Source: Pseudomonadota bacterium
Lineage (GTDB): Bacteria; Pseudomonadota; Gammaproteobacteria; Burkholderiales; JABEVD01
Assembly (NCBI GenBank): GCA_021802655.1
Contig: JAJZRP010000017.1
Location: 1-37,631 of the forward strand
Length of the DNA stretch: 37,631 nucleotides
Direction of reading: 5' to 3'
Program-made: the position numbers and the translations under genes
Part shown: in pieces, positions 1,607 to 33,400 of the stretch
Layout of the letters: every line of letters begins with the position of its first letter
How positions within the stretch are numbered: the first letter of the stretch is position 1
The notes under the pieces: generated by a model
Databases searched by the model: none
What the model was told of the DNA's origin: nothing
What the model saw: the letters and a program-made list of their open reading frames with translations, nothing else

Positions 1607-1623
1607 TGCACGACAATAGTGCA
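1607..1623 (+). promoter_or_regulatory. NtrC-type enhancer binding site
   Basis: The sequence TGCAC-N7-GTGCA matches the dyad core of the NtrC consensus (TGCACC-N5-GGTGCA) in both half-sites and spacing. Its centre lies about 108 bp upstream of the start point expected from the sigma-54 promoter at 1696-1714, a typical enhancer distance. Binding by NtrC is inferred; the motif and spacing are seen directly. Confidence 0.72.
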
Positions 1624-1650
1624 CGAAAGTTCTGAAGAATCTTTCGCGCA
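1620..1650. repeat. Inverted repeat after acr3, possible terminator or operator
   Basis: TGCACGAAAG (1620-1629) and CTTTCGCGCA (1641-1650) pair at 9 of 10 positions across an 11-base spacer, and the spacer itself can extend the stem (TTC with GAA). An AT-rich stretch follows but no clean run of T, so termination of the arsenic transcript is only plausible. Its left arm overlaps the right half of the NtrC-like site, so it could also be a second regulator site. Confidence 0.45.
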
Positions 1651-1695
1651 TTAAATTAATATTTAAAATTCATAAGGATAGACATAAAATTCTTT

Positions 1696-1714
1696 TTGGC
1701 ACGCTAGTTGCTTT
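1696..1714 (+). promoter_or_regulatory. Sigma-54 (-24/-12) promoter
   Basis: TTGGCACG, CTAG, TTGCTTT reproduces the RpoN consensus (YTGGCACG-N4-TTGCW) with the obligatory GG-N10-GC spacing (GG 1698-1699, GC 1710-1711). Transcription should begin near 1723, giving a 5' leader of about 55 bases before the kinase/phosphatase gene. Together with the upstream NtrC-like dyad this predicts expression under nitrogen limitation. Confidence 0.85.
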
Positions 1715-1742
1715 CCTGAACAAAAACAGGAAAGGAACTGAA

Positions 1743-1787
1743 ATGAAGCCAGGACATCCCTTCGGGGGACACCCATCATGCCCCTGA
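1743..1787 (+). CDS. Possible 14-codon leader ORF overlapping the kinase/phosphatase start
   Basis: ATG 1743 follows a good ribosome site (GAAAGGAACTGAA) and reads MKPGHPFGGHPSCP before TGA 1785-1787. It runs past ATG 1778 of the next gene in another frame. Because the larger gene has only a weak GGGGGA site of its own, translation of this mini-ORF could deliver ribosomes to it by coupling. The peptide resembles nothing I know and may have no function. Confidence 0.35.
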   Translation: MKPGHPFGGHPSCP

Positions 1788-3487
1788 AAATCACATTTGG
1801 CGCAGTCAGCGAGGCCGGAAGAAAGGACAGGAACGAGGATTTCTTCGGACTGGTGACCCCGGACGGGGATCTACTTGCCAGCAAGGGCATCGTGGCCGCG
1901 ATTGCGGACGGCGTGGGGAGCGAAGCGGGCGGACGGGAAGCAGCGGAATATTCCGTGCTCAGCGTGCTGAGCGACTATTACGACACTCCCGAAACATGGG
2001 AAATTCCTCATGCCCTGGGCAAACTCCTGGCTTCGACGAACCGCTGGCTTCTGGCGCAGAGGGCTTCCCACCGCGAATTCTCGAGCATGGCGAGCACCCT
2101 GAGCCTTCTGGTACTGAGAGGGAACCGCTATACCATCGCGCATGTGGGAGACACGAGAATCTACAGGCTGCGCGGCGAAGAGCTCTCCCGCCTGACCCTC
2201 GATCATGTCTGGGAAGGAACCGAAGGCAGCCATGTTCTCAAGCGTGCCATGGGACTCGATCTGCAGCTTGTGGTGGATTACGCCGAGGGGGAGCTGAAAA
2301 AGGGAGACATCTTCCTGCTCGCATCCGACGGGGTATGGGAAACGCTGGGACAGAACAGACTCCAGGAACTTCTGGCGAAGCATCCCGAGCCGGAAGAGGC
2401 ATCCAGGGTCCTCGTCGAAAGCGCATTCGATATGGGCAGCGAAGGCAACCTCACCGCCCAGGTGCTACGCATTGACGACACAGCAGAAGGATCCCTGAAG
2501 GATCTGCTGCTGGAAGGAGCCGACCTTCCCTTGCCCCCCCACCTCTCGCAAAGACAAAGCATCGACGGTTATGAAGTGATCGACCTCCTGCACAGATCGG
2601 AACAAACGCTGCTTTACAAGGTTAGAGAAGCTTCGAGCGGACGCATGCTGGTACTCAAAACCCTCAAACAGGGCGCGAACAGTCATGCCAGAAACGATTT
2701 GCTGATGGAGGAATGGCTCGGGAAAAGGATTCTTTCCAAGCATTTCCCACAGGTCATCTCCCCGGAGAACCGCCATTTCCTGTATTTCCTCACGACCTGG
2801 CACGAGGGCAGCACGCTCGGCGAAATGCTCGATGACAGGCATCATTTCACCGTCACGGAAGTTGTCCATATCGGCACCAAACTGGCACAGGCGCTGGGCG
2901 CAATTCACCGTCTCGACATCATCCACAGGGATATCAGGCCGGAGAACGTGCACCTGGGAAAAGACGGGAAGCTGCGCATCCTCGATCTGGGTTCGGCTGT
3001 GAATCCGGCTCTTGGCAACGAGGCCGAACCTTTTTCCGGATCTCCCAACCATATGGCGCCCGAACTCCTTTCCGGACAGGCTGCCAGCATCCAGAGCGAC
3101 CTTTATGCGCTCGGAGTCACGCTTTACCAATTGCTGACCCGAAAATTCCCTTATGGCGAAATCGAGGCAGGAAAGATCCCGAGTTTCGCCGACCCTGTCC
3201 CCCCGACACGCTTTCGCCCCGACATTCCTTCCTGGCTTGAGAACATCCTTCTGAAATCCGTCTCGCGGGATCCGGAGCGGCGCTTCGAAATGCCGGAAGA
3301 GTTCCTGCTGGCGATGGAACGCGGCGAAAATTCGCGCATTCCGGCTCCCCGGAAAACGCCTCTGGCGAGCAGGAACCGGCTTCTCACCTGGAAGATCACC
3401 GCAGCCGTTTCGATCCTGGTGAACTTCTTCCTGCTGTACGTGGATGCGATAGAAACCCTGAGCTTCTCATCAGGCTCGCCCTGGTAG
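1778..3487 (+). CDS. PP2C-type protein phosphatase / Ser-Thr protein kinase fusion, membrane-anchored
   Basis: This 569-residue signalling protein has a PP2C phosphatase domain at about residues 5-240: acidic metal motifs NED near the start, the IADGVGSEAGG segment, HVGDTR and LASDGVW. A eukaryotic-type kinase domain follows at about 262-515, with the VLK lysine, the HRDIRPEN catalytic loop, and DLG in place of DFG. One transmembrane helix lies near the C-terminus (about 540-560), so both domains should face the cytoplasm. This fused architecture is known in proteobacteria, for example beside nasA/nirB in Pseudomonas aeruginosa (PA1782). Here there are no nitrate genes nearby, but the NtrC/sigma-54 promoter fits a nitrogen-assimilation role. 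Substrates are unknown. The gene ends 7 bp from radA, tail to tail. Confidence 0.9.
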   Translation: MPLKITFGAVSEAGRKDRNEDFFGLVTPDGDLLASKGIVAAIADGVGSEAGGREAAEYSVLSVLSDYYDTPETWEIPHALGKLLASTNRWLLAQRASHREFSSMASTLSLLVLRGNRYTIAHVGDTRIYRLRGEELSRLTLDHVWEGTEGSHVLKRAMGLDLQLVVDYAEGELKKGDIFLLASDGVWETLGQNRLQELLAKHPEPEEASRVLVESAFDMGSEGNLTAQVLRIDDTAEGSLKDLLLEGADLPLPPHLSQRQSIDGYEVIDLLHRSEQTLLYKVREASSGRMLVLKTLKQGANSHARNDLLMEEWLGKRILSKHFPQVISPENRHFLYFLTTWHEGSTLGEMLDDRHHFTVTEVVHIGTKLAQALGAIHRLDIIHRDIRPENVHLGKDGKLRILDLGSAVNPALGNEAEPFSGSPNHMAPELLSGQAASIQSDLYALGVTLYQLLTRKFPYGEIEAGKIPSFADPVPPTRFRPDIPSWLENILLKSVSRDPERRFEMPEEFLLAMERGENSRIPAPRKTPLASRNRLLTWKITAAVSILVNFFLLYVDAIETLSFSSGSPW

Positions 3488-11161: not shown

Positions 11162-14100
11162 GCGTTGTTCGCCCGGAGCATCGCCTCGAATTCGGAAGAT
11201 GGAAGCGGCCTGGAGAAGAGATAGCCTTGTCCATAATCGCAACCGGCTTCCTGAAGGAGGCGCTTCTGCTCCATCGTCTCCACGCCTTCGGCGATCACCT
11301 TGAGTCCCAGCTTGTGCGCCATCACGATGATCGCCTCCGAAAGCGCCATGTCGCTCTGGTCGGTCGCCAGATCACGAATGAAGGACTGGTCGATCTTCAG
11401 GTAATCGATGTCGAATTTCTTGAGGTAGGAAAGGGCGGAATAGCCCGTTCCGAAATCGTCTATCGCGACCTGTATGCCTGCATCCCTGAAATGGATCAGC
11501 TTGTCGGTGATTCCGGAATCCGCATTGAGCAGCAAGCCTTCCGTGATCTCGATGACCACGTTCTGCCCGGAAAGATCGAGCGCCTGAAGGTGATCCAGCC
11601 AGGGGGCTATGCCGCCCGCTTCGCTCTGGAACTGGACCGGAGACCCGTTTACGCTGACCTGAAAATCGCTGCATATGTCCACCCAGCGATTCGCCCAGCG
11701 GGAAGCTTCCCTGAACACCCAATCGCCGATATCGATGATCAGCCCCGTTTCTTCGGCAAGCGTGATGAATTCCATGGGGCTGACCATTCCCCGCTGGGGA
11801 TGCTGCCAGCGCAACAGGGCTTCCGCCTTGCGGATGTTCCCCGACGAAAGATCCACGATGGGCTGGAAATAGAGCACGAACTGGCCTGCAGCCAGCGCGC
11901 CGCGCAGGTCGTTGAGGAGTCTCAGCCTCGACTGCGCCTTCTCCTGCATGGCATTGGTGAAATAGCTCAAGCGGTTGCGCCCGGCATTCTTCGCCACGTA
12001 CATCGCCTGATCGGCATTTCTCAAAAGCTGTTCCACTTCGAGCGCATCGTTCGGATAGAAGGTGATCCCGACGCTGGCGGAAACGTAGGCCATTTCATCG
12101 CCCAGCACGAAAGGATCGGCGAGCTTCGCGATGATGTTCTGCGCGATCTTCTCCACATGGTTGGTATCCGGAAGCTCTGAAAGGATGACCGTGAATTCGT
12201 CGCCGCCCAGGCGCGCAACGGTGTCCGATTCACGCACGCAGGAAACAATGCGCCTTGCCGCCTCGACCAGCAGGATGTCCCCGGTCTGATGGCCCAATGT
12301 GTCATTGACTTCCTTGAAGCGATCGAGGTCGATGAACAGCAGCGCGAGCATCAAATTCCCGCGATGCGCCTTCTTGACCTCCCGTTCCAGCCTGTCGTAG
12401 AACATGCGTCTGTTGGGAAGCCCGGTGAGCAGATCGAAGTTCGCCTGCCGCCATATCAGTTCGTCGGTGCGCACCTTGTCGGTGATATCCGAAAACAGCG
12501 CGACATAACGGTGAGTGGAGCCGTTATCATCCAGGATGGTATTGATGGTCAGCCACTCGGGATAGATTTCGCCGTTCTTGCGCCGGTTCCATATCTCGCC
12601 CTGCCATATGCCTGTGGATTCGAGCTCGCGCCACAATACCTTGTAGAAATCGGCATCGTGCCGCCCGGAACTCAGCATGCCGGGATTTCGCCCGAGCGCT
12701 TCGTCCAGACCGTAGCCCGTGATCTGGGTGAATGCCGGGTTGATGGCGATGATGCGGTTCTCCTCGTCAGTCACCATCATCGCCTCGCTGGTGTTGCGGT
12801 AAACCATCGATGCGAGCCCCAGCTCCTCCTCGATGCGCTTGCGCTCGATGGCAATGCCGATCAGATTGGCCGTGCTTTCGATCATGGCGAGATCCGCTTC
12901 GCTCGGGGCACCCGGGCTGCGATGATAGATGGCGAAGGTGCCGAGCACCTTGCCGGAAGAGCCGATAATCGGCTCCGACCAGCAGGAAGCGAGTCCTGCT
13001 TGGAAGGCCAGCCCCTTATAGTCCCTCCAGTAAGGATGGCTCTGGATATCCTCGACGACGACGCGCTTGCCGAGATACGCTGCTGCGCCGCATGAGCCCA
13101 CGCCCGGGCCGATTTCCACGCCGCTGATGGCTGCGTTATAAAATTCCGGCAGGCTGGGTGCGGCTCCCGTCAAAAGATGCCTGCCCTGCTCGTCCAGCAG
13201 CAAAATGGAGCACAGCATGGCGGGATTTTCGGCTTCCACGCCATGCACCACGAGCTCCATGATTTCGCGAAGCGGCGCTCCTCTGGCGAGCAATTCCAGG
13301 GCGCGATTGCGCAATTTTTCCCTGCTTTCGACGCGCCTGCGCGCGGTGACGTTCTTGACAATCGCCACGGTGTACTCGAGCTCCCCGCCCGCCTTGCGCA
13401 CCGCGCGCACCGCCAAGTGGACGTAAACGACCTCTCCGCCCTTGCGGATGAAGCGCTTGTCCATTTCATACTCGTCGATCTCGCCGTTCAAAACTCGGCT
13501 GAAAAGCGCCTCATCCATCGCAAGATCGTCTTCGTGGGTGAGCTGCGCCCAGGTCATGACAACCAGCTCTTCGCGGGAATAGCCCAGCATGTCGCAAAGC
13601 GCATCGTTGACCTCGATCCAGCCCTTATCGGGGCTCGTCGCAGCCATCCCCACCATGGCGCGTTCGAAATAGGCCCTGAAATGACGTTCGCTCGCTGCGA
13701 GATCCTCCTGCGCCTGCCGCCTCTGCCTTTCCTGGTCGAAGCTGTCCAGCGCGAAAGAAATGTCCCGCGTCATCTCGTCCAGCAGATCGACCATTTCCTC
13801 GTCGAATGCATTGACGATTTCGTGGTAGACACTGAGGAGCGCAAAAGGCTTCCCTCCGCGAGGAATCGGGAAGCTTCCGCTGGAACGCCAGCCGAACCGG
13901 GCCGCCCGTTCGTGCCAGGGCAGGGTGATTTGGTCGTTGAGAAAATCATCGACGATCACGAAACGGTTTTCCCGGAAGGCGATGCCGGCTGGCCCCCTGC
14001 CCTCCGGCAGATTCTCGTCGATGGACATGACGATGCCTTCCAGGTATTCCTTTCCTTCACCGTACATCGCGACAGGGCGTATCCTACCTTCGCATTCATC

Positions 14101-15051
14101 CAACCGGCTGACCGCCGCGAATTTCATCCCGCCGAAATCCACCGCCATTTTGCAAACCATGGGGAAAAGCGAAGACTCTTCGTCCATGCGTACGATGGCC
14201 TGGTTGACTTCGCTGAGCGCCTTGTAAAGATTGGTCAGGCGCTCGATGCGCGCCTCGGCGGCCCTTCTTTCGGTGATATCGATCATGCTGGCCCGGATCA
14301 GCTGGCGGTCGACCGATGGCAGCCTGACCAGGCGAATTTCGCAGGGAATGAGGCGGCCATCGCGGTTTCTGATGATCCTCTCGAACACCACTTCCTCTCC
14401 AGCCAGCGCCTGTTCCTTGTGGGCAAGAATGCTCTTTTCGAGCGGCAATCCGTCGGGCTGCTCGGAGGGATAGAAATCGGAGGGAGAATGCTTCAGCAAT
14501 TCTTCCCTGTCGCACCCGTAAAGGCGTTCCGCATTGAGATTGGCATCGACGAAGCGGTCAAGATCGACATCCAGCACGGTAATCGCCTCCGGCGCCATCT
14601 CGACCAGCACCCGGTAGCGCGCTTCCGACGCATTGCGCTCGGAGATGTCGTACAGCACGACGAGGTGAACGCCTGCGAACCCCTCCCCCAGAAAAGCCGG
14701 GCTCATCAGAAAGGTCCGAACCGTGCCATCCTTGCAGGCAATTTTGACTTCCATCGGGGTAAAAGGCTGGCCGGACCTTTTGGCTTCCGCCATATTTTTT
14801 TGCCAGCTATCGGCCGCCCATTGCCGATATTGCGGATCGGGATAGGCGAGAATCCACCAGCTTGCCAGATCGGGAATGTCGGCAAGAGTGTAGCCGAGTG
14901 TCCGAATGAACTCACCGTTAAGATAGGTGATCTTCCCCTCGTCATCGATCAGGGCGAGCGGAACGGGAACAGCTTCGATGATGGCCCGGAAGAGCACCTC
15001 GCTATCCGACGATTCTTGCACCTCTTCGTGGATGTCGCTGAAGTCGGTCAT
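11158..15051 (-). CDS. Multi-sensor c-di-GMP enzyme: PAS-PAS-GAF-PAS-GAF-PAS-GGDEF-EAL
   Basis: This 1297-residue protein has no obvious membrane helix and is likely cytosolic. In rough order it has PAS domains at 20-140 and 145-265, a GAF domain at 275-435, PAS at 445-570, GAF at 575-735, PAS at 740-865, GGDEF at 865-1035, and EAL at 1045-1290. The cyclase site is intact (GGDEF), with an inhibitory RxxD (RESD) five residues ahead. The phosphodiesterase domain keeps EALLRW, DDFGTGYSAL, KIDQSF and EGVET, so both activities are possible. The sensors' ligands are not evident from sequence. A good promoter lies just upstream. The stop overlaps ispD, which is an unusual neighbour for such a protein. 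Confidence 0.93.
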   Translation of the reverse strand: MTDFSDIHEEVQESSDSEVLFRAIIEAVPVPLALIDDEGKITYLNGEFIRTLGYTLADIPDLASWWILAYPDPQYRQWAADSWQKNMAEAKRSGQPFTPMEVKIACKDGTVRTFLMSPAFLGEGFAGVHLVVLYDISERNASEARYRVLVEMAPEAITVLDVDLDRFVDANLNAERLYGCDREELLKHSPSDFYPSEQPDGLPLEKSILAHKEQALAGEEVVFERIIRNRDGRLIPCEIRLVRLPSVDRQLIRASMIDITERRAAEARIERLTNLYKALSEVNQAIVRMDEESSLFPMVCKMAVDFGGMKFAAVSRLDECEGRIRPVAMYGEGKEYLEGIVMSIDENLPEGRGPAGIAFRENRFVIVDDFLNDQITLPWHERAARFGWRSSGSFPIPRGGKPFALLSVYHEIVNAFDEEMVDLLDEMTRDISFALDSFDQERQRRQAQEDLAASERHFRAYFERAMVGMAATSPDKGWIEVNDALCDMLGYSREELVVMTWAQLTHEDDLAMDEALFSRVLNGEIDEYEMDKRFIRKGGEVVYVHLAVRAVRKAGGELEYTVAIVKNVTARRRVESREKLRNRALELLARGAPLREIMELVVHGVEAENPAMLCSILLLDEQGRHLLTGAAPSLPEFYNAAISGVEIGPGVGSCGAAAYLGKRVVVEDIQSHPYWRDYKGLAFQAGLASCWSEPIIGSSGKVLGTFAIYHRSPGAPSEADLAMIESTANLIGIAIERKRIEEELGLASMVYRNTSEAMMVTDEENRIIAINPAFTQITGYGLDEALGRNPGMLSSGRHDADFYKVLWRELESTGIWQGEIWNRRKNGEIYPEWLTINTILDDNGSTHRYVALFSDITDKVRTDELIWRQANFDLLTGLPNRRMFYDRLEREVKKAHRGNLMLALLFIDLDRFKEVNDTLGHQTGDILLVEAARRIVSCVRESDTVARLGGDEFTVILSELPDTNHVEKIAQNIIAKLADPFVLGDEMAYVSASVGITFYPNDALEVEQLLRNADQAMYVAKNAGRNRLSYFTNAMQEKAQSRLRLLNDLRGALAAGQFVLYFQPIVDLSSGNIRKAEALLRWQHPQRGMVSPMEFITLAEETGLIIDIGDWVFREASRWANRWVDICSDFQVSVNGSPVQFQSEAGGIAPWLDHLQALDLSGQNVVIEITEGLLLNADSGITDKLIHFRDAGIQVAIDDFGTGYSALSYLKKFDIDYLKIDQSFIRDLATDQSDMALSEAIIVMAHKLGLKVIAEGVETMEQKRLLQEAGCDYGQGYLFSRPLPSSEFEAMLRANNA

Positions 15052-15095
15052 ATGGATTTCTGCAGGGTTGGCAGCCTTGTGCCCAGAATTTTCGT

Positions 15096-15125
15096 ATCAT
15101 ACTTCAGTTCCAAGGAGGGTGTAAA
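15096..15125 (-). promoter_or_regulatory. Sigma-70 promoter for the c-di-GMP enzyme / ispDF / thpR unit
   Basis: On the minus strand TTTACA (15125-15120) and TATGAT (15101-15096) each match consensus at five of six positions and are 18 bases apart. The expected start near 15088 leaves a leader of about 37 bases before ATG 15051. All four downstream genes overlap, so this is the best candidate for their shared promoter. Confidence 0.62.
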
Positions 15126-15181
15126 TTTTGCAGGGAATCTATTCCGGAAACCCTTGTCCAATTCTGCATTTGGAGAAAACC

Positions 15182-15967
15182 ATGCAGAAAATACGGCCCG
15201 CCGCCTGTGCGGGGTCGTTTTATCCGGGAAACAGGCTGGAGCTGAAAGCTTCCCTCGATGCCTTTCTGGAAAATGCGGCAGGGGAAGCCGCTCCCTTTCC
15301 GAAAGCCATGATCGTCCCTCATGCAGGATACGCCTATTCGGGGGAAGTGGCAGCTCGCGCCTACGCGCGCTTAATTGGAAGCGGATACCGCCGCGTGGTT
15401 CTTCTGGGACCGGCGCACCGCCACAGGTTCAGGGGAATCGCCCTTCCCGTCGCCTCCATTTTCGAAACGCCCCTGGGGCCGATTCCCCTCGACCCCGTTT
15501 GCCGGGGACTCGCCTCCCTTCCAAATTTCCTCGGAAGCGAGGAAGCGCACCGGATGGAGCATGCTATCGAAGTCCAGCTTCCCTTCCTGCAGCGCGTTCT
15601 CGAAGAATTTTCCATCGTTCCCCTTCTGGTGGGGAACGTGAGCCCCGCAGCGGTTTCCGATATCATCGACAGGTTCATCAGGGAACCCGGAACCCTGGTA
15701 CTGGCAAGCTCAGATCTTTCGCACTTTCATGCCTACGACGAGGCCAGGGTACTGGATGCAGCCACTGCAGAATCGATCATGGCCCTCGATCCGGTTCTGG
15801 AGCAAGAACAGGCCTGCGGCGCAATGCCGGTCAACGCGCTTCTGCTCTCGGCAAAGCGTCATGGCCTGCGCCCCCGGCTCATCGACATCAGAAATTCCGG
15901 CGACACCTGTGGAAGCCGCGAACGAGTAGTGGGCTACGCCTCGTTCTCCTTCGGGTTCGCCCCGTGA
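15182..15967 (+). CDS. MEMO-family protein (AmmeMemoRadiSam system protein B)
   Basis: This 261-residue protein belongs to the MEMO family, a dioxygenase-like fold related to the extradiol enzyme LigB. Visible candidate metal ligands are H47 in VPHAGYAYSG and H79/H81 in GPAHRHRF. EHAIEVQLPFLQ and SSDLSHFH are also conserved blocks. Near the end, GDTCGSRERVVGYAS places a cysteine within one position of the catalytic cysteine of human MEMO1 by simple alignment; I would not press that equivalence. ATG 15182 has GGAGAA upstream. The stop overlaps the next gene as GTGA, and a radical SAM gene follows, which defines the AmmeMemoRadiSam set. The chemical reaction is unsettled to my knowledge. Confidence 0.9.
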   Translation: MQKIRPAACAGSFYPGNRLELKASLDAFLENAAGEAAPFPKAMIVPHAGYAYSGEVAARAYARLIGSGYRRVVLLGPAHRHRFRGIALPVASIFETPLGPIPLDPVCRGLASLPNFLGSEEAHRMEHAIEVQLPFLQRVLEEFSIVPLLVGNVSPAAVSDIIDRFIREPGTLVLASSDLSHFHAYDEARVLDAATAESIMALDPVLEQEQACGAMPVNALLLSAKRHGLRPRLIDIRNSGDTCGSRERVVGYASFSFGFAP

Positions 15968-16497
15968 GCGACATTCTTTTAAAAATCGCGCGGTCCTCGA
16001 TCTCGAACCGGCTGGGCCTCGATTTTCCGGAACCCGATTGCCCGCCTGAAATGAGCGAATTGGGCGCGACATTCGTCACGCTCACCCTGGGCGGGAATTT
16101 GCGCGGCTGCATCGGCACGCTGGAAGCTCATCGCCCCCTCCTTCTCGACATCAGGCAAAATGCCATTGCGGCAGCCTTTTCAGACCCGAGGTTCCCTCCC
16201 CTGAGCATGGCGGAGTATGCGCATATCAAAATCGAAGTCTCGCTGCTCTCGCAAGCTGCGCCGCTCGCCTTTTCCAGCGAACAGGATGCGCTGCTGCAAC
16301 TTGCCCCCGGCATCGACGGCGTCATTTTCGAGTGCGGTCATAGAAGAAGCACTTTCCTGCCCCAGGTCTGGGAAAGCCTTCCGGAACCTTCCTCCTTCCT
16401 CGCGCAACTCAAGCTGAAGGCGGGGTTTTCCGGCAGTTTCTGGTCTGACGAGATCAAACTTTCACGCTACACCGTATCCAAATGGAAGGAACAATGA
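15964..16497 (+). CDS. AMMECR1-domain protein (AmmeMemoRadiSam system protein A)
   Basis: This 177-residue protein contains the AMMECR1 domain, identified by LRGCIGTLE at about residues 43-51 and the downstream IEVSLLS and GVIFECGHRRSTFLPQVW blocks. GTG 15964 overlaps the MEMO stop as GTGA. The frame stays open far upstream, but that is only antisense read-through of the neighbouring gene, so the short GTG start is chosen. Its stop overlaps the radical SAM start as ATGA, so the three proteins are probably made together. Function is unknown; the conserved surface suggests a substrate or partner role alongside the radical SAM enzyme. Confidence 0.9.
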   Translation: MSDILLKIARSSISNRLGLDFPEPDCPPEMSELGATFVTLTLGGNLRGCIGTLEAHRPLLLDIRQNAIAAAFSDPRFPPLSMAEYAHIKIEVSLLSQAAPLAFSSEQDALLQLAPGIDGVIFECGHRRSTFLPQVWESLPEPSSFLAQLKLKAGFSGSFWSDEIKLSRYTVSKWKEQ

Positions 16498-17561
16498 CGA
16501 TCTATCCGGGACGCTACTGGCACGCAATCGAGGACGGGCGCATCCAGTGCGACCTGTGTCCGCGCGATTGCAGGCTGCGCGAAGGGCAGCGCGGCGCCTG
16601 CTTCGTCAGGCAAAGGCTGGACGATAAAATCGTTCTCACCACCTACGGACGCTCCTCGGGATTCTGCATCGATCCCATCGAGAAGAAACCGCTCCATCAT
16701 TTCCATCCGGGGTCCGGCGTGCTCTCTTTCGGAACCGCAGGATGCAACCTCGCCTGCAAATTCTGCCAGAACTGGGACATCAGCAAGGCAGCCGACATGG
16801 ATCGCCTGATGGACCGGGCTTCCCCCGAGGAAATCGCGCAGGCGGCCAGAAACAGCGGATGCGAGAGCGTGGCGTTCACCTACAACGACCCTGTCGTTTT
16901 CGCCGAATATGCGATGGACGTGGCCGATGCCTGCCATCAACTCGGGATCAAGACGGTCGCGGTGACTGCAGGCTACATGCACGATCAACCCAGGCGGGAT
17001 TTCTATGCCAAAATGGATGCCGCCAATGTCGATCTCAAGGCCTTCACCGACGAATTCTATTTCAAGCTGACAGGCGCGAATCTGGAGCCGGTACTCGACA
17101 CCCTGGTCTACCTGAGACACGAAACCGATGTCTGGTTCGAAATCACGACGCTCTTGATTCCCGGAATGAACGATTCCGACGGGGAAATTCTGGCCATGTC
17201 GGACTGGATTCTGGAAAAATTGGGAGACGACGTCCCGCTCCACCTCACGGCATTCCATCCCGACTACAAACTGAAAGACATCGCTTCCACGCCACAGGGC
17301 ACGCTGATCCGCGCAAGAAAGATCGCTCAAACAGCAGGCCTCAAATTCGTCTACACTGGAAACGTCCACGACACGGACGGTGGAACGACTGCCTGCCCTT
17401 CATGCAGGGCGCCGCTCATCGTGCGCGACTGGCATGAGCTTCTCGATTACAGGATTTCCGATGGGCATTGTCCGGATTGCGGAGCCAAGATTCCGGGCAA
17501 CTTCGGGAAAACCCGGGGCAAATTCGGCAGCAGGCGAATCCCGATCAGGATAGGAGCATGA
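16494..17561 (+). CDS. amrS: AmrS-type radical SAM enzyme (AmmeMemoRadiSam system)
   Basis: This 355-residue enzyme has the radical SAM cluster motif GCNLACKFC (CxxxCxxC) at about residues 84-92. A cysteine-rich segment precedes it (CDLCPRDC), and a C-terminal zinc-ribbon-like pair (CPSC and CPDC) follows. It is related to the activating-enzyme branch of radical SAM proteins. ATG 16494 follows GGAAGGA and overlaps the AMMECR1 stop; ATG 16482 is too early for that site. The substrate is not known; the fixed partnership with MEMO and AMMECR1 suggests a shared pathway or a modification of one of them. Confidence 0.92.
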   Translation: MTIYPGRYWHAIEDGRIQCDLCPRDCRLREGQRGACFVRQRLDDKIVLTTYGRSSGFCIDPIEKKPLHHFHPGSGVLSFGTAGCNLACKFCQNWDISKAADMDRLMDRASPEEIAQAARNSGCESVAFTYNDPVVFAEYAMDVADACHQLGIKTVAVTAGYMHDQPRRDFYAKMDAANVDLKAFTDEFYFKLTGANLEPVLDTLVYLRHETDVWFEITTLLIPGMNDSDGEILAMSDWILEKLGDDVPLHLTAFHPDYKLKDIASTPQGTLIRARKIAQTAGLKFVYTGNVHDTDGGTTACPSCRAPLIVRDWHELLDYRISDGHCPDCGAKIPGNFGKTRGKFGSRRIPIRIGA

Positions 17562-17562
17562 A

Positions 17563-18189
17563 ATGGAAGTCGTCATTGCCGCGAAAGAGGCAAACCTCGA
17601 AGGCACGCTGACTCTGCCAAAGAATGCGCATGGGATCGTTCTGTTCTCCCATGGCAGCGGCAGCAGCCGCTTCAGCCCGCGCAACAACTACGTTGCAAAA
17701 ATCCTCAACGATGCCGGATTCGCCACCCTGCTTCTCGATCTTCTGACGCGGCAGGAAGACCTCGATTACGAAATGCGCTTCGATATCGAACTCCTGACCG
17801 CAAGGCTTCTGGAGGCAACCGCCTGGCTGCAGCAGTCAAGCGCGACGAAACAGATGAAGATCGGCTATTTCGGCGCAAGCACCGGGGCTGCATCTGCGCT
17901 GAAGGCTGCCGCGAAACTCGGGAAAGCCGTATCGGCCGTGGTCAGCCGAGGGGGACGCCCCGACCTCGCAAGTCCGGAGGAGCTGGCTCTGGTCGCGGCC
18001 CCGACGCTGCTCATCGTCGGAGGCAGCGACGACATCGTCGTCGAACTCAACCAGGAGGCTTTCCTGAATCTCGCCTGCGAAAAAGAGATGAAGATCATCC
18101 CGGGAGCATCGCACCTCTTCGAGGAAGCCGGGAAGCTCGAACAGGTGGCGACGGCGGCAAGAGACTGGTTCAACCGTTATCTTGCCTGA
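17563..18189 (+). CDS. Alpha/beta hydrolase, dienelactone hydrolase-like
   Basis: This 208-residue soluble hydrolase has an oxyanion-loop region at FSHGSGSS, the nucleophile elbow GASTGA (about residues 104-109), an aspartate in GGSDD, and the histidine in GASHLFEE, making a full catalytic triad. The family includes proteins annotated as dienelactone hydrolases whose true substrates are mostly unknown. It starts one base after amrS with AGGAG upstream, so it is co-transcribed with the AmmeMemoRadiSam genes here. The 3' end overlaps the converging gene at 18170 by 20 bases. Confidence 0.82.
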   Translation: MEVVIAAKEANLEGTLTLPKNAHGIVLFSHGSGSSRFSPRNNYVAKILNDAGFATLLLDLLTRQEDLDYEMRFDIELLTARLLEATAWLQQSSATKQMKIGYFGASTGAASALKAAAKLGKAVSAVVSRGGRPDLASPEELALVAAPTLLIVGGSDDIVVELNQEAFLNLACEKEMKIIPGASHLFEEAGKLEQVATAARDWFNRYLA

Positions 18190-25514: not shown

Positions 25515-26453
25515 ATGTCCGAACTCTTAAAGAACATCGATGCACGCACCAAGCTGGCGGGCACGAACAAGCTTGAAATCCTGCTTTTTTCGCTGGGGAC
25601 GGACATCAAAAGCGGAAGGACAGAGTGTTTCGGCATCAACGTTTTCAAGGTGCGCGAAGTCATGCGAACACCTGAAGTCACGCGCGCCCCCGACATGCCT
25701 TCCGCCGTGGAGGGCATGGTGAGCCTGCGCGGCGTACTGGTTCCGGTCGTCGATATCGCAAAATATGCCGGAATCGAGACGGGGAAAAAACCCGAAATCC
25801 TGATCGTGACGGAATACAACGGGCATACTCAGGGATTTTTGGTCGAATCGGTGGACATCATCCTGCGCCTTGACTGGTCGGCCATGAAGGTTCCTCCCGA
25901 AATGCTGACAGCGAAAATGGGCGGACTTGTCACGGCAGTGACGGAACTGGACGACGGACGCCTCGTAATGCTGCTCGACGTGGAAAAGATTCTTTCCGAA
26001 ACCAGCCGGTTCGACGACAGCCACCTGTTCGTCGGAATCCGGCCGCTGGAAGCCAAACGCACGATCTTTTTCGCAGACGATTCCTCGGTCGCGAGAAAGC
26101 AGATCGAAAACACCCTCAATGCGATGAACATCGACTACATGAGCGCGGTGAACGGAAAGCAGGCCTGGGACGAACTCCAGATCCTTGCGGCCCGGGCGGA
26201 AGCGACCCATACCCCGTTGAAGGATGTCATCCAGCTGATCCTGACCGACGTGGAAATGCCGGAGATGGACGGCTATCTCCTGACCAAGAAGATCAAGAGC
26301 GACCCGAGATTCGCCGGAATTCCGGTCATCATGCACTCCTCCCTTTCCGGAATGTCCAACCAGCAGCTCGGGCAGTCGGTGGGCGTGGACGAATACGTAT
26401 CGAAATTCGAGCCGCACAAGCTCGCAGCGACGCTGACACGCCTGCTCGCATAG
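25515..26453 (+). CDS. cheV: CheV-type chemotaxis coupling protein (CheW + receiver), copy 1
   Basis: This 312-residue cytosolic protein has a CheW-like coupling domain (about 20-170, with FGINVFKVREVM and GMVSLRGVLVPVVDI) and a C-terminal response-regulator receiver (about 183-312, with FADDSS, the phospho-acceptor block LTDVEMPEMDGY and the later MHSSLS and SKFEP). CheV links receptors to CheA, and its phosphorylation tunes adaptation. It starts 67 bases after the 58-codon gene and is followed after nine bases by a second CheV. No cheW is present in the cluster. Confidence 0.93.
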   Translation: MSELLKNIDARTKLAGTNKLEILLFSLGTDIKSGRTECFGINVFKVREVMRTPEVTRAPDMPSAVEGMVSLRGVLVPVVDIAKYAGIETGKKPEILIVTEYNGHTQGFLVESVDIILRLDWSAMKVPPEMLTAKMGGLVTAVTELDDGRLVMLLDVEKILSETSRFDDSHLFVGIRPLEAKRTIFFADDSSVARKQIENTLNAMNIDYMSAVNGKQAWDELQILAARAEATHTPLKDVIQLILTDVEMPEMDGYLLTKKIKSDPRFAGIPVIMHSSLSGMSNQQLGQSVGVDEYVSKFEPHKLAATLTRLLA

Positions 26454-26462
26454 GAGAAACGG

Positions 26463-27398
26463 ATGGAATTGAACGCAGACAATAACAAGACTCTTCTGGC
26501 GAGCATAGACGCCCGCACCACGCTGGCCGGATCGAACAAAATGGAGATCCTGCTGTTTTCGCTCGGCACGAGCGAGATATTCGGCATCAATGTCTTCAAG
26601 ATCCGGGAAGTGACCAGAACTCCGCCCATCACCAAGACGCCCAACATGCACGCCGGCGTCGTCGGGATCATTTCGTTGCGCGGCAATATCATCCCCGTCC
26701 TCAATCTGGCGAGCTTCCTCAATATCGACAAGCACGGAACCATCGGGGAAACCATGATGGTGACCGAATACAGCCGCCAAACCCAGGGTTTTCTGGTGGA
26801 AAGCGTCGACCGAATCATTCGCGTCGATTGGGAAAAGATGAGATCCCCCGAGGTCATGCTGACCGGAAACGAAGGCCTGATCACGTCCGTCACCGAACTC
26901 GATGATGGCAGGCTGGTTTCCATCCTGGATGTCGAACAAATACTGGTTCAGGCTTTCGGTGAAATCGATATCCCCGGAATCGTCCCGGTCCAGGCTGAAG
27001 GAGAAACGACGGTATTCTTCGCCGACGACTCCATGGTCGCGCGAAAGGAAATCATGCAGGTGCTCGACGGACTCGGCGTCAAATACTTCCAGGCGAACAA
27101 CGGCAGGGAAGCCTGGGACAAGCTCCAGGGCATGGCTGCCCAGGAAACGGATGGAGCGCTGCACGACAAGCTCAAACTGATTCTGGTCGATGCCGAAATG
27201 CCCGAGATGGACGGATACGTCCTGACCCGGAACATCAAGTCGGATAACCGTTTCTCCGGAATTCCCGTGGTCATGCACTCCTCCCTCTCCTCCGAGGCCA
27301 ACAAAGCCATGGGCAAAACCGTTGGGGTTGACGACTATGTTTCGAAATTCAACCCCGCCATTCTCGCCGAAACCATGCGGCAGTATCTGGAAAGATAA
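26463..27398 (+). CDS. cheV: CheV-type chemotaxis coupling protein, copy 2
   Basis: This 311-residue paralogue of the preceding protein has the same CheW-like and receiver domains (FGINVFKIREV and GIISLRGNIIPVL, then FADDSM, LVDAEMPEMDGY and MHSSLS). The pair probably arose by tandem duplication, with divergence greatest in the linker and the receiver's middle. AGGAGAAACGG precedes ATG 26463. Having two CheVs side by side suggests that they serve different receptors or give graded adaptation. Confidence 0.93.
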   Translation: MELNADNNKTLLASIDARTTLAGSNKMEILLFSLGTSEIFGINVFKIREVTRTPPITKTPNMHAGVVGIISLRGNIIPVLNLASFLNIDKHGTIGETMMVTEYSRQTQGFLVESVDRIIRVDWEKMRSPEVMLTGNEGLITSVTELDDGRLVSILDVEQILVQAFGEIDIPGIVPVQAEGETTVFFADDSMVARKEIMQVLDGLGVKYFQANNGREAWDKLQGMAAQETDGALHDKLKLILVDAEMPEMDGYVLTRNIKSDNRFSGIPVVMHSSLSSEANKAMGKTVGVDDYVSKFNPAILAETMRQYLER

Positions 27399-27427
27399 TT
27401 GACCAAAGAGACCCTATTCGGAATAAT
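27399..27427 (+). promoter_or_regulatory. Sigma-70 promoter for cheY-cheZ-cheA-mcp
   Basis: TTGACC (27399-27404) and AATAAT (27422-27427) each match consensus at five of six positions with the ideal 17-base spacer. The -35 begins immediately after the stop of the second cheV. A small hairpin, GCAGC-TTTC-GCTGC (27439-27452), lies in the predicted 5' leader of cheY. The promoter would allow cheY and later genes to be expressed apart from the cheV pair. Confidence 0.6.
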
Positions 27428-27481
27428 CCCTGAGTTGCGCAGCTTTCGCTGCATTTGGACGGGTTGATTTATGGAGAAGTT

Positions 27482-27871
27482 ATGGCGAATGCCGATTTGA
27501 AAATTCTGGTGGTTGACGATTTCTCGACGATGCGCAGGATTATCCGCAACCTGCTCAAGGAGTTGGGCTTTCCCAATGTCACCGAAGCGGAAGACGGCGT
27601 CGATGCGCTGAAGAAACTGCAGGGCGGAAATTTCGAGTTTGTCGTATCCGACTGGAACATGCCCAACATGAGCGGAATAGACCTGCTGAGAGCAATCCGC
27701 AAGGATCCCACGCTCAAGCATCTTCCCGTGCTCATGGTGACAGCCGAAGCCAAGAAGGAAAACATCATCGAGGCAGCCCAGGCGGGAGCGAGCGGCTACG
27801 TCGTCAAGCCTTTCACTGCTGCCGTGCTGGACGAAAAGCTCAACAAGATATTCAAGACTATGGGGATTTGA
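27482..27871 (+). CDS. cheY: Chemotaxis response regulator CheY
   Basis: This 129-residue single receiver domain has the canonical residues in the same numbering as E. coli CheY: D12-D13, phospho-acceptor D57, T87, Y106 and K109. Phospho-CheY binds the flagellar motor switch. ATG 27482 has GGAG upstream; ATG 27455 would add a nine-residue extension not found in the family. The stop is followed almost at once by cheZ. Confidence 0.96.
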
Positions 27872-27873
27872 CC

Positions 27874-28599
27874 GTGGATGATTCCGAAGACCTGGAAGCG
27901 CTATTCGACTCCATCGTTCAGGCCGGCAGCGAGGAAAAGCCTGCCGAGCCCAAGATTAAGCCGTCCGCAACAACCGTGGCGGCGAAGCCTGCCGAGGGTG
28001 CTCCTCCCGTATTTTCCCAGATCGGCCAGCTGACGCGCAGCCTTTACGATGCGCTCCACGAACTGGGCTACGACAAGTCGATCGAGAAGGTAGTCAATTC
28101 CGTACCCGATGCGAATGATCGCCTCGCCTACATCGCCAACCTGACCCGGCAGGCAGCTGAGCGCGTGCTGAATGCGACCGAAGTCGCAAGGCCGATCCAG
28201 GACAGGATCGGGGATCGCGCCCAGCTGCTTTCCGGGCAGTGGCAGAAAGTGTTCGACAACCAGCTTTCGGTCGAAGAATTCAAGGAGCTCGCGATGCAGA
28301 CGCGGGATTATCTGAAGGACGTGCCCCACCAGGTGAAAGCCACCAATGACCAGCTCACGGAAATCATGATGGCGCAGGATTTCCAGGATCTGACCGGTCA
28401 GGTCATCAAGAAGGTGGTCGATATCGTGAGATCGGTGGAATCCCAGCTCGTTTGCCTGCTGATCGAAAATTCGCCCCAGGGTGAAGTGGCTGTTCCAGAA
28501 GGATTGATGAATGGCCCAGTGATCAGTGCAGATGGCAGAGTGGATGTCGTGACCAACCAGGCCCAGGTGGACGAACTTCTGGAAAGCCTAGGCTTTTGA
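27874..28599 (+). CDS. cheZ: CheY phosphatase CheZ
   Basis: CheZ speeds dephosphorylation of CheY. The 241-residue protein is mainly a long helical hairpin with the catalytic block AQDFQDLTGQVIKKV, in which D and Q are four residues apart, and the C-terminal CheY-binding helix QAQVDELLESLGF. The start is uncertain: GTG 27874 lies about nine bases from GGGG, whereas TTG 27868 overlaps the cheY stop as TTGA but sits too near that site. There is an acidic, poorly conserved N-terminal stretch. Confidence 0.93.
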   Translation: MDDSEDLEALFDSIVQAGSEEKPAEPKIKPSATTVAAKPAEGAPPVFSQIGQLTRSLYDALHELGYDKSIEKVVNSVPDANDRLAYIANLTRQAAERVLNATEVARPIQDRIGDRAQLLSGQWQKVFDNQLSVEEFKELAMQTRDYLKDVPHQVKATNDQLTEIMMAQDFQDLTGQVIKKVVDIVRSVESQLVCLLIENSPQGEVAVPEGLMNGPVISADGRVDVVTNQAQVDELLESLGF

Positions 28600-28610
28600 A
28601 AGGGGGCGAA

Positions 28611-30434
28611 ATGAACGACTTTGCTGGCAACGAGGAAATGCTGCAGGACTTCCTCCAGGAAGCTGGGGATCTGTTGTCGGATGTCGATAACAAGCTGGTC
28701 GATCTCGAGAAGGACCCGGGCGACAAGAAGCTGCTCAACGACATATTCAGGAATTTCCACACCATCAAGGGCGGCGCGGGATTTCTCAATGCCACCGAGA
28801 TGGTCAAGCTTTGCCATCTCACCGAAAATCTGTTCGACAAGCTCAGGAACGAAGAACTGACCATGAACCCCGTGATCATGGATGCGATTTTCGCAGCGAC
28901 AGGCGTGGTGCGCGACATGTTTGGCTCCCTTGCTCATTTCACCCAGCCCGCTCCCGCCGATGCCTCCCTGATCGCCACCCTGACTGCAGTGGTCAACGGA
29001 GAGGCCGCCTCCGCTGCGCCCGTTCCTCAACCGGCCTCGTCGTCGAACGGACCGGATTGGGCAGTACTCCACCAGAGCATCAGCGGCGCTCCCGCGCTTG
29101 AAGCGCCTGCCCCTGCCAACGCCCCGGCCGCGCCGAAGCGGGAACCGGCACATGAACCCGCCAGGGCGGCCCCCCGCCGCGATGGCGAAAAACCTCCTGT
29201 GGAAAAGGAAACCACGATCAGAATCGATACGGCAAGACTCGATCAGGTGCTCAATCTTTCCGGGGAAATCGGGCTGACGAAAAACCGCCTGAACTGCCTG
29301 AGGAACAACGTTCTTCAGGGGAAAACCGATCAGCATACCTTGCGCGATCTGGACGAAGCGGTCAACGAACTCGATCTCCTGGTCGGGGTGTTGCAGAACG
29401 CAGTCATGAAAACGCGCATGCAGCCCGTCGGGCGGCTTTTCCAGAAATACCCGCGCATGGCACGCGACCTCGCCCGTCAACTCGGCAAGGATCTGGAGCT
29501 CGAAATTACAGGTGAAGAAACCGAACTCGACAAAACCATGATCGAAGAGCTTTCCGATCCGCTCGTGCATCTGATCAGAAATGCGGTGGACCACGGCATC
29601 GAAACGCCCGAGGAGCGAATCGCTGCAGGAAAGCCGGAAAAAAGCATCGTCCGCCTCTCCGCCATACAGGCGGGGGACCACATCGTGATCGAAATTTCCG
29701 ACGACGGCCGCGGCATGAACGCTGCAGTGTTGAGGCGCAAAGCCCTCGAAAAGAAGATCGTCGACGAAGAAACGCTCAACAACATGGACGAGCAGCAGAG
29801 CCTGGGGATCATCTTCATGCCGGGCTTCTCGACCAAGGACCAGATTTCCAATGTTTCGGGCAGGGGCGTCGGCATGGATGTCGTCAAAACCAACATCCAG
29901 AAGCTCAACGGCAGGATAGAAATCTCTTCGGTGCAGGGCCAGGGATCGACCTTTTCGATCTACCTGCCGCTCACCCTCGCCATATTGCCTGTTCTGATCG
30001 TCCGGGTCGGCGAGCAGTCCTTCGCCGTGCCGCTTGCCATGGTGAGAGAAATCATCCCCATCAAACCGGAGGAAGTGCAGTCGGTTTCCGGCCGGGCGAC
30101 CATGGTGGTGCGCGACGAAGTACTTCCGATCCGGGCGCTCGCCGAGATGATAGGCTGGCCGCAGGAGGCACCCCCCAGCTACGGCGTACTCATGAAATCC
30201 GGCTCGAAATCCTTCATCCTCGCCGTGAGCAATTTCGTGGGAAGGGAGGATGTCGTCATCAAGCCCCTCAAGGGAATCAAGCCCAGGGGGGTGGCCGGAG
30301 CCACGCTTTCCGGCGACGGATCGATCGTGCTGATTCTGGACATGGCGGAATTGCTCTCCGGCGAATCAGCCACGAAATCCTCGCTATTCACTCAATCCAT
30401 AAAAAACCAGGAAGCCGGACTGGCGGCTGCCTGA
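28611..30434 (+). CDS. cheA: Chemotaxis histidine kinase CheA, short form without an evident P2 domain
   Basis: This 607-residue kinase takes receptor signals through CheW/CheV and phosphorylates CheY. The HPt (P1) domain spans about 1-105, with H50 in [12 protein letters not shown] Pro/Ala-rich linker of about 90 residues follows where the CheY-binding P2 domain would be. Then come the P3 dimerisation helices (from about 200), the P4 ATPase with [12 protein letters not shown] and SDDGRGM, and the P5 CheW-like domain. ATG 28611 is chosen because AGGGGG precedes it; TTG 28596 overlaps the cheZ stop. The absence of a folded P2 is inferred from composition and length. Confidence 0.94.
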
Positions 30435-30453
30435 CAGCAACAAAGGGGAAACA

Positions 30454-32082
30454 ATGAAAAAGATATGGAACTCGCTGAGTATCCAGGCCAAACTGCAAAT
30501 CCTGATTCAGGGTTTCCTGATCGTGGTGCTGGCCATTTCACAACGCTGGACCATGGACAACTTCGAGAAAAGAATGCTCGAAGAGGCGAAACATCGCGCT
30601 GCAATATCGGCCGACGGCCTGCTCAACGGCATGAACATGCTGATGATCACGGGAATGATCTCGGACCCTGCGAACAGAACGCTGATGGTCAGGAAAATGG
30701 GCGACTCCTCGGGGGTTGCCGAACTCAGGATCATCCGCGCGAAGCAGGTTTCAGACCAGTTCGGACCGGGGCTTCCTGAAGAACAGGCGAAAGACGATCT
30801 GGATCGCCAGGCGCTCGAAACCGAAAAACCCATCTTCAAAAAAACGACCCTGGCAGGCGGCAAGCCCGCCCTCAGAGCGGTAATCCCCTTCATCGAGAGC
30901 ACCAATTTCCGCGGAACGAACTGCCTGATGTGCCACCATGTCAAGGTTGGAAGCTCCAACGGAGCGGCCAATATCGTGCTCGACCTTTCCGACGATTACG
31001 ACGGCCTCAGAAGAGTCGACATGGGTCTCTGGATCGGCCAGCTGATCCTCCAGGTTCTGCTCTTTTTCGTCATAGGCTGGTTCATCCGCACCATCATCAA
31101 GCCCGTCAAGCATCTTCAGGCGGTGATCACGAACATGCAGCATGACAGCGACCTGACCAAACGGGTCGAAGTCGAAAGCAACGACGAAATCGGGCAGGCT
31201 GCAAAAGCCTTCAACGCGCTCGCGGAAAACTTCCAGAAGATCGTGCATCAGGTACATGGCTATGCCGACGAAGTGTCGCAATCCGCCACCCAGCTTGCCA
31301 GCACTTCCTCGAAAATATCCGAGGGGTCGCAGCAGCAAAGCTCCGCAGCTTTCTCGACTTCCGCAAGCGTGGAAGAAATCAGCACGAAAATCAGGGAAGT
31401 GGCGAAGAGCGCCGCCGAAACGGAAGGCATCGCCAATACCGCACAGGAACTGTCGAAAGCGGGACAGTCGGTCGCAATCAATGCGGCCCGGGAACTGACG
31501 AAGGTGGCAGGTTCGGTCAGCGAATCGGCCAAACTCATCTCGTCCCTGGAGCACCGATCCAACGAGATCGGGAAAATCGTCATGGTCATCAAGGAAATCG
31601 CCGACCAGACCAATCTTCTCGCGCTCAACGCGGCAATCGAGGCGGCGCGCGCCGGCGAGCAGGGAAGAGGTTTTGCGGTGGTGGCGGACGAAGTCAGAAA
31701 GCTTGCCGAGCGCACCGCCAATGCGACGACCGATATTGCCGTGATGATCGAAGAATTCTGCAAGGAGATCGAACAGGCCGTATCCATCATGGATCTGAGC
31801 AGCCGAGAAGTATCCACAGGCGTCAGTCTCACCAACGAAGCTGCGGAGTCGCTGGCCAAAATCAACGAAGGCGCACTCAACACGCTCGAAAAAATCCGCT
31901 CCATGGTCAGTGCAACCCAGGAGCAGAGCGCTGCCAGCCACGAGATTGCGCAAAGCGTCGAGAAAATCGCAGGATTCGCCCAGGAAAATTCATCTTCCAT
32001 CAGCGAAACTTCGCAGGCCCTGCACCATCTGGAATTGCTCGCCGCGAAATTGCAGGAATCGGTTGCGAGATTCAAGATCTGA
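30454..32082 (+). CDS. Methyl-accepting chemoreceptor with periplasmic c-type heme motif
   Basis: This 542-residue receptor has a transmembrane helix at about 13-33, a periplasmic region of about 160 residues, a second helix near 195-215, a HAMP domain, and a cytoplasmic signalling hairpin whose tip reads [40 protein letters not shown] (split here only by sense). The periplasmic part contains C157-LM-C160-H161, a CxxCH heme-attachment motif, as in the Tll0287/DUF3365-like heme sensor domains. A role in sensing redox state, oxygen or NO is inferred from that. No CheR/CheB docking pentapeptide is seen at the C-terminus. It ends the cheY-cheZ-cheA transcript. Confidence 0.92.
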
Positions 32083-32155
32083 CTGGCCTGTTTCATTTGG
32101 GGCAGATGTCCATTAACATGACGGATTTCGTTTGAATAGGCTATCGTTGTATTTT

Positions 32156-33400
32156 ATGCGCCCCGGATTTGGCTTGCTCGAATTGAAGAAAGGAAGCGTT
32201 TTGGCCCTGGTCATGCTGGCTTTCGCCGGCCAGGCCTCCGCTATTGGAATCGGCATATTGAAAGTCGATTCCCATCTCGGGGAAGCCTTCAGGGCTTCGG
32301 TGAAGATCGTTGCCTCTCCCGATGAAACCGTGGATGCTTCCTGCATTTCGCTGGATCAGTCTGCTTCGGATAACGGCATTTTCCAACTGGGAAGCGCGAG
32401 ACTCGGAGTCGGGGCCGCCAACGGAAGTCGAATCGTCAGAATAGCGACGGATCAGAAAATCAACGAGCCCATCGTCACACTCAGGCTCCGCATCCATTGC
32501 GGCGATCAGGGCGCAATCGAGAAATCCTTCACCGTGTTCCTCGATCCCCCATCGACCTCCCCCGAAGTTCCCGAAGCCGCCGAACCGATCGGGAAGCCCC
32601 TGAGTGAGAAAACACCAGCGGAAAAGGCCCACGCTGCAAGGGCGCCTGCGGAAGAATCCACGGGAAATCTTTTCAGGATCAAGCCCAACGATACGCTTTC
32701 CGGCATAGCGCACGATTTCTTCCCGAACAGCACGATGGCGCAAAGGCGTTTCATGGCTGCCGTGCTGAGGGAAAACCCCGAACTCTCGCCGAATCATCTC
32801 GAAGCAGGATCGCAAATCAGGATTCCCGATATCGGACCCAAAGGGCCGCTTGCCAAGCCGGCAAAACCGGAGCTTAAAGCTTCCGCAAGTAAAAAGGCTG
32901 TGGTGCCGGCAGCAAAAGCAGCAGCGAAGCCCGCATTCCATCTGGATATCGTCTCAAGCGCGCCCAAGCCGGAAGCCAGGCCCAACAACGCAGCCCAGGA
33001 CCTGAAGCGCACGGAAACGCAGCTGATTGCCAGGGCAGACGACCAGACTGTCCAGATGCTGCAGTTGCAGGGGCAGGTCAAAACGCTGGAAGCGAAACTC
33101 GCCGAGCTGCAGAGCCGGATTGCCGTTGCCGACAGGCTCCTCGCCAAGATCAATGCCGCGAAAATCCAGCCGCCGCCTCCGCCAGCCGCAACCTTCCCGA
33201 AATGGGCATGGATGGCAGCCGCCCTGCTCGCATTGCTGGCAGTGGCCGCCGGAATCTTCTGGTACCTGATGAAAAAAAGGAAAGCCGCGGAACAAAGCCT
33301 GCTTATGGATCGGTACCTTGATCCGAAACGGTCCAGTCCTTCCCTGATCGACCCTCTGGATTATTTCGAATCAGACTCGTCCGGCCAGCAGAAATGGTAG
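32156..33400 (+). CDS. FimV-like protein with LysM domain
   Basis: This 414-residue protein has a probable signal peptide (to about ASA at residue 30). A beta-rich domain follows that resembles the FimV N-terminus (IGILKVDSHLGEAFRASVKI). The LysM-type peptidoglycan-binding domain (about 173-225, FRIKPNDTLSGIAHDF through LEAGSQIRIP) comes next, then a Lys/Ala/Pro-rich stretch, a coiled coil (about 280-330), one transmembrane helix (about 345-367) and a short cytoplasmic tail. FimV proteins organise the cell pole, type IV pili and chemosensory machinery, so the position next to a chemotaxis operon fits. ATG 32156 is the most plausible start; upstream TTG and downstream TTG alternatives exist and no ribosome site is strong. 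Confidence 0.78.
   Translation: MRPGFGLLELKKGSVLALVMLAFAGQASAIGIGILKVDSHLGEAFRASVKIVASPDETVDASCISLDQSASDNGIFQLGSARLGVGAANGSRIVRIATDQKINEPIVTLRLRIHCGDQGAIEKSFTVFLDPPSTSPEVPEAAEPIGKPLSEKTPAEKAHAARAPAEESTGNLFRIKPNDTLSGIAHDFFPNSTMAQRRFMAAVLRENPELSPNHLEAGSQIRIPDIGPKGPLAKPAKPELKASASKKAVVPAAKAAAKPAFHLDIVSSAPKPEARPNNAAQDLKRTETQLIARADDQTVQMLQLQGQVKTLEAKLAELQSRIAVADRLLAKINAAKIQPPPPPAATFPKWAWMAAALLALLAVAAGIFWYLMKKRKAAEQSLLMDRYLDPKRSSPSLIDPLDYFESDSSGQQKW

Follow-up and report, generated by a model that had tools for sequence, protein, structure and literature searches.

Features of the locus

The window analysed here, which is the whole stretch of 37,631 nt, contains a gene for a protein in which a PP2C phosphatase domain, a Ser/Thr kinase domain and a C-terminal hydrophobic helix follow one another, the arrangement that characterizes the fusion family of nitrate-assimilation (nas) operons (Table 1). 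The first-pass annotation had placed a PP2C/kinase fusion gene behind the promoter, and the PP2C and Pkinase domains bear it out. In an AlphaFold2 model of the protein (mean pLDDT 85.6, pTM 0.56), the C-terminal helix is recovered and would act as a membrane anchor, while the pTM value leaves the arrangement of the domains uncertain. Foldseek matched the first domain to PppA, tPphA and PstP and the second to PknB.

Table 1. Coordinates of the gene, its predicted promoter and associated features in the window (strand "." denotes no orientation)
Feature	Position	Strand	Remarks
NtrC-type enhancer dyad TGCACGACAATAGTGCA	1607..1623	.	exact TGCAC-N7-GTGCA; centre at about -108
Sigma-54 -24/-12 element TGGCACGCTAGTTGCT	1697..1712	+	exact; GG at 1698-1699, N10, GC at 1710-1711
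Inverted repeat TTTCCTG/CAGGAAA	1712..1733	.	straddles the predicted start at ~1723; possibly chance
Possible 14-codon leader ORF (MKPGHPFGGHPSCP)	1743..1787	+	overlaps the main start codon
PP2C-kinase fusion gene	1778..3487	+	569 aa; probably a phosphatase-crippled paralogue of the nas-operon enzyme
PP2C domain	1778..2482	+	residues 1-235
Gly223 codon	2444..2446	+	replaces the metal-ligand Asp (tPphA D231) of PP2C motif 11
Ser/Thr kinase domain	2546..3322	+	residues ~257-515; K294, D385 and D403 kept, Arg387 for the catalytic-loop Lys
C-terminal hydrophobic helix and orphan-only tail ending SSGSPW	3377..3484	+	helix at residues 534-564

Two short elements lie between the -12 region and the coding sequence. 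The inverted repeat (shuffle P 0.02) has counterparts of unrelated sequence behind the -12 element and across the predicted start in three orthologues (L093, L094 and L096); a 5' mRNA hairpin would fit such repeats, but the left arm lies 5' of the predicted start, and they occur in several orthologues, not in all. The possible leader ORF has a good ribosome site; it has the same length only in the two closest orthologues (~25/35 bases identical) and is absent in the other five. Elsewhere in the window, a chemosensory cluster (25515-33400) comprises two adjacent genes for CheW-response regulator (CheV-like) proteins together with CheZ, CheA, a methyl-accepting protein and a FimV-N protein, and an open frame of 1106 aa with an AMMECR1 domain at its C-terminus is followed by genes for a radical SAM protein and a dienelactone-hydrolase-like protein (13177-18189).

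Fusions of PP2C with a kinase were first reported in a 2005 domain survey, from Pseudomonas (gi|9947763; PMC1262709), and a 2025 survey describes such fusions with a conserved DN or DD in motif 11 (PMC12088040). These two surveys were all that our searches on the fusion returned: neither a functional study of the nitrate-operon form nor a report of the clade described below was found in the literature searched, a body that leaves most subscription journals outside.

Probable origin from the nas-operon fusion

Relatives of the fusion had been expected beside nitrate-assimilation genes, and they do adjoin narK and nirB. Across the order, 399 genomes were sampled and 94 contain a homologue; the closest homologues mostly stand behind narK. 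The host carries such a copy as well: on its contig C40, where all gene names except nirB were assigned by inspecting translations, nasT-nasS is divergent from a porin gene followed by narK, a PP2C-kinase gene (L002), nirB and nasA, with a leader and a terminator-like sequence ahead of this operon. Because the nas operon thus has a fusion of its own, the window gene is a second copy in the host. The assertion that nitrate genes are absent here consequently holds for all 37,631 nt of the window and is wrong for the genome, and the picture of an organism without nitrate genes was rejected.

The genus was sampled through nine genomes, including the host (G000). These are mostly metagenome-assembled and 82-99% complete, and single absences of nirB, nifH or the orphan may be gaps. 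Eight of the nine have an orthologue of the window gene (hereafter the orphan); G002 is the genome without one. An operon copy adjoining nirB is present in G000, G006 and G008, and nirB scores above the cut-off in these three and in G003, which keeps nirB without a second fusion copy. The orphan is kept in G001, G004, G005 and G007, genomes of 82-95% completeness in which nirB was not found.

A maximum-likelihood analysis of 33 proteins placed the eight orphans in a single clade (support 100/100); its sisters are L098 and L099, operon copies from within the genus, and L002 follows after these. Since the orphans group in this way beside same-genus operon copies, their phylogeny fits a duplication inside the genus lineage. 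A common origin with L002, L098 and L099 is also reflected in the identical domain order, 54-61% sequence identity (54% for L002) and the C-terminal hydrophobic helix. The two forms nevertheless differ in several respects. L002 lies between narK and nirB and retains its catalytic residues, whereas the window gene is free-standing between an ACR3 transporter gene and radA, has its own predicted NtrC/sigma-54 promoter and no nas-type leader, and encodes a protein without the motif-11 Asp. The orphan protein further ends in a tail of the form SSG-x-PW in all eight cases, which is absent from the operon copies.

Catalytic residues of the two domains

The PP2C domain shares its fold (TM-score on target 0.83-0.87) and most motifs with the stand-alone bacterial enzymes tPphA, PstP and PppA, and the other metal-ligand positions, D21, D44, D125 and D184, are retained, but the full set of metal-coordinating Asp residues is broken in motif 11. 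When aligned with tPphA, Gly223 stands at D231; across a 92-protein alignment, the same position is Gly in 8/8 orphans and Asp in 84/84 others. PP2C enzymes require their metal-coordinating Asp residues for activity (PMC3375153). Phosphatase activity of the window protein has therefore likely been lost, to judge from its residues, although the loss of one metal ligand need not end every activity.

The kinase domain is less uniform across the clade. The window protein keeps the beta3 Lys, HRD Asp and DFG Asp that mark an active Ser/Thr kinase, as do the two orthologues nearest to it, and canonical residues are missing in the remaining five (L093-L097): L093 has lost the beta3 Lys and L094-L097 the DFG Asp, and L096 and L097 further lack the HRD Asp and part of the activation segment. 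At the catalytic-loop Lys of the HRDxK motif, seven orphans have Arg and one has Ser, compared with Lys in each of the 84 other proteins aligned. Src-type active kinases carry Arg at this position. With all three canonical residues in place as well, the window kinase domain may still be active. Loss of any of these three residues is the usual criterion for a pseudokinase, as set out in a review of the bacterial Ser/Thr pseudokinases (PMC12599244). By it, five of the eight orphans are pseudokinases, while the window protein and the two orthologues nearest to it, keeping all three, are not; none of the families that a text search of this review turned up is linked to nitrogen.

All eight reading frames are open, and dN/dS values indicate that the protein is maintained by purifying selection: they range over 0.09-0.13 among the trio of close orthologues and 0.12-0.16 between the two most degenerate ones. 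For the kinase domain, dN/dS is ~0.12. With intact frames and a dN/dS near 0.1, the pattern is not one of simple decay, and pseudogene decay was rejected on the dN/dS values.

These residues bear on what the orphan could do as an enzyme. The constraint on the kinase domain, together with the three residues kept by the window protein and its closest relatives, would suit an orphan that in this species is an active kinase, freed from its built-in phosphatase, and that on induction by nitrogen shortage phosphorylates the nas-type target in one direction only. We regard this as a minority possibility, because canonical kinase residues are gone from five of the eight orthologues that share this promoter (several of them in L096 and L097), which argues that catalysis is not the shared function, and because the catalytic-loop Lys is replaced in all eight. 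The proposal in the first-pass annotation, an ordinary kinase-phosphatase that is fully active and controlled by NtrC, draws on the good prediction of both folds and the four aspartates that remain; it is improbable given that every orphan has Gly, and every one of the 84 relatives Asp, at the motif-11 position.

A conserved, predicted NtrC- and sigma-54-type promoter

The promoter itself had been described as a TGCAC-N7-GTGCA dyad at an ideal enhancer distance, about -108, from a consensus -24/-12 element with exact GG-N10-GC spacing, and each part of this description was reproduced; the distance is counted from a predicted +1 set 12 nt past the -12 C. The dyad TGCACGACAATAGTGCA also matches the core GCAnnAnnnTnnTGC of the E. 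coli NtrC box, (T)GCA(CC)AnnnT(GG)TGC(A) (PMC8743547). Two sequence hallmarks of an NtrC/sigma-54 promoter are hence present, namely an NtrC-type dyad 80-200 bp 5' of the start and the GG-N10-GC element. In the host genome (2.0 Mb, 86 contigs), the exact sigma-54 pattern has 10 matches, against none for the reversed-pattern control, and the search pattern is supported by matches that fall just 5' of nifH (C19:17394; nifH at C19:16416-17237) and just 5' of a nifV-like gene. The exact dyad occurs in only two places in the whole genome (control 0). The second of these, on contig C11, was set aside, as it sits at the 3' end of a ppk2-like gene; an exact NtrC-box match at C41:1393 was likewise discarded, with no sigma-54 site close by.

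Comparison of the upstream regions of the orthologues, the check that had been proposed for this promoter, found both motifs in 8/8: the dyad with 0-1 mismatch, centred 85 to 108 bp ahead of the predicted start, and a TGGCAY-R-N4-TTGC element. Downstream, radA is the neighbour in six orthologues. The upstream neighbours vary and include an ACR3 transporter gene, a cheZ-resembling gene (by inspection), a gene for an EAL protein, a phosphoglycerate-mutase-like gene and a mutL-side gene, so that the motifs are not mere passengers of a conserved neighbourhood. Comparison of the three closest species gave an identity of 100% for the -24/-12 element and 88% for the dyad, against only 41% for the spacer between them. 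In dinucleotide shuffles of the eight orthologous 200-bp upstream regions (6000 per species), the two motifs appeared together 0 times, and on this result, with the genome counts against controls, a chance origin of the pair was rejected.

NtrC (TIGR01818) and RpoN (TIGR02395) score above cut-off in 9/9 genomes. A strict combined pattern (dyad, 55-85 bp, -24/-12) gave 11 matches in the nine genomes and none for the reversed control. Five of these belong to the orphan; the other six lie 5' of an nrtA-like gene, which has a leader terminator, of nasT, and of a gene for a 488-aa dCache-like protein (four genomes). In the host, one-mismatch dyads with sigma-54 sites occur at the two divergent nas promoters and at the dCache gene. 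The window promoter resembles such NtrC-dependent sigma-54 promoters (those with the E. coli NtrC box and the nas and dCache promoters of the genus) in its 17-bp dyad 85-108 bp 5' of the predicted start and in its GG-N10-GC element; no structural difference sets it apart, and only the controlled gene is unusual. Control of the window promoter by NtrC and RpoN is thus predicted with high confidence, NtrC binding and induction by nitrogen limitation being what these motifs would imply.

Two further observations concern the other promoters. Between nasT and the nas operon of the host (contig C40; L076, 17500-17800), a single NtrC-like dyad is flanked by a sigma-54-like site on each side and may therefore serve both divergent promoters. 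In at least five genomes of this genus (L105 in G005, L109 in G004, L111 in G006, L112 in G003, and L143 on host contig C60 near 9613), the conserved gene of ~488 aa, whose match to dCache_1 is weak, carries an NtrC dyad together with a sigma-54 promoter, and it may represent another unstudied output of the nitrogen response.

A real sigma-54 promoter could also answer to a different enhancer-binding protein, such as NifA, NtrX or another member of the family, since these genomes encode many NtrC-family proteins and the genus fixes nitrogen (nifH in 7/9 genomes). This seems improbable: the dyad fits the NtrC box and is common to the nas genes, and NifA control in particular was rejected, with no TGT-N10-ACA site found 5' of any of the eight orthologues. 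A tie of the orphan to nitrogen fixation fails too, as nifH is missing in G008 and G004, where the orphan is present, and is present in G002, where the orphan is absent.

A possible nitrogen-induced pseudoenzyme

The claim that the promoter ties an orphan kinase-phosphatase to nitrogen stress can therefore be kept for its regulatory half, with NtrC/sigma-54 control supported by conservation in 8/8 orthologues and by the same motif pair at known nitrogen genes of the genus, and is not supported as regards a working kinase-phosphatase, given the Gly at the PP2C Asp in 8/8 and the kinase residues lost in 5/8. We favour the reading, at a probability of about 0.6, that the product of the window gene is a paralogue induced by nitrogen shortage, anchored in the membrane and devoid of phosphatase activity, which probably serves as a regulatory pseudoenzyme. 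A decaying duplicate with a leftover promoter, which the stepwise loss of catalytic residues across the clade and the absence of the gene from G002 might suggest, is very unlikely in view of open frames in eight genomes, dN/dS of 0.09-0.16, a conserved tail, and motifs conserved while the spacer diverged.

Under the favoured reading, nitrogen limitation would lead NtrC-phosphate to bind the dyad and activate RpoN polymerase at the -24/-12 element, with transcription from ~1723. The product would be a genus-specific paralogue of the PP2C-kinase fusion normally found between narK and nirB, which after duplication became free-standing and independent of the nas leader, carries a conserved C-terminal tail and lost a metal-ligand Asp of its phosphatase, and in several species kinase residues as well. 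Such a membrane-anchored, catalytically crippled protein would most likely act as a scaffold, decoy or competitor that regulates the target or partner of the nas-type enzyme. As the window protein could still be a kinase, a regulatory role without catalysis is favoured only slightly over even odds. The lack of a nas-type leader and the survival of the gene in genomes where nirB was not found suggest an output independent of nitrate, so that the protein would be made whenever nitrogen is short, nitrate present or not. More tentatively, at somewhat less than even odds, the genus may keep a nas-derived, nitrogen-starvation-induced pseudo-phosphatase (in several species also a pseudokinase) that controls a general nitrogen or membrane target non-catalytically; if true, this would add a new type of output to the Ntr response.

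The orphan clade appears to offer a natural experiment, in which a gene was duplicated, moved out of a nitrate operon, kept under a promoter of the NtrC type and deprived of catalytic residues, and is still under purifying selection. If confirmed, a largely non-catalytic protein would connect eukaryote-like folds of kinases and phosphatases with the Ntr response, and the binding partners of the ancestral enzyme would become apparent from a comparison of the two copies.
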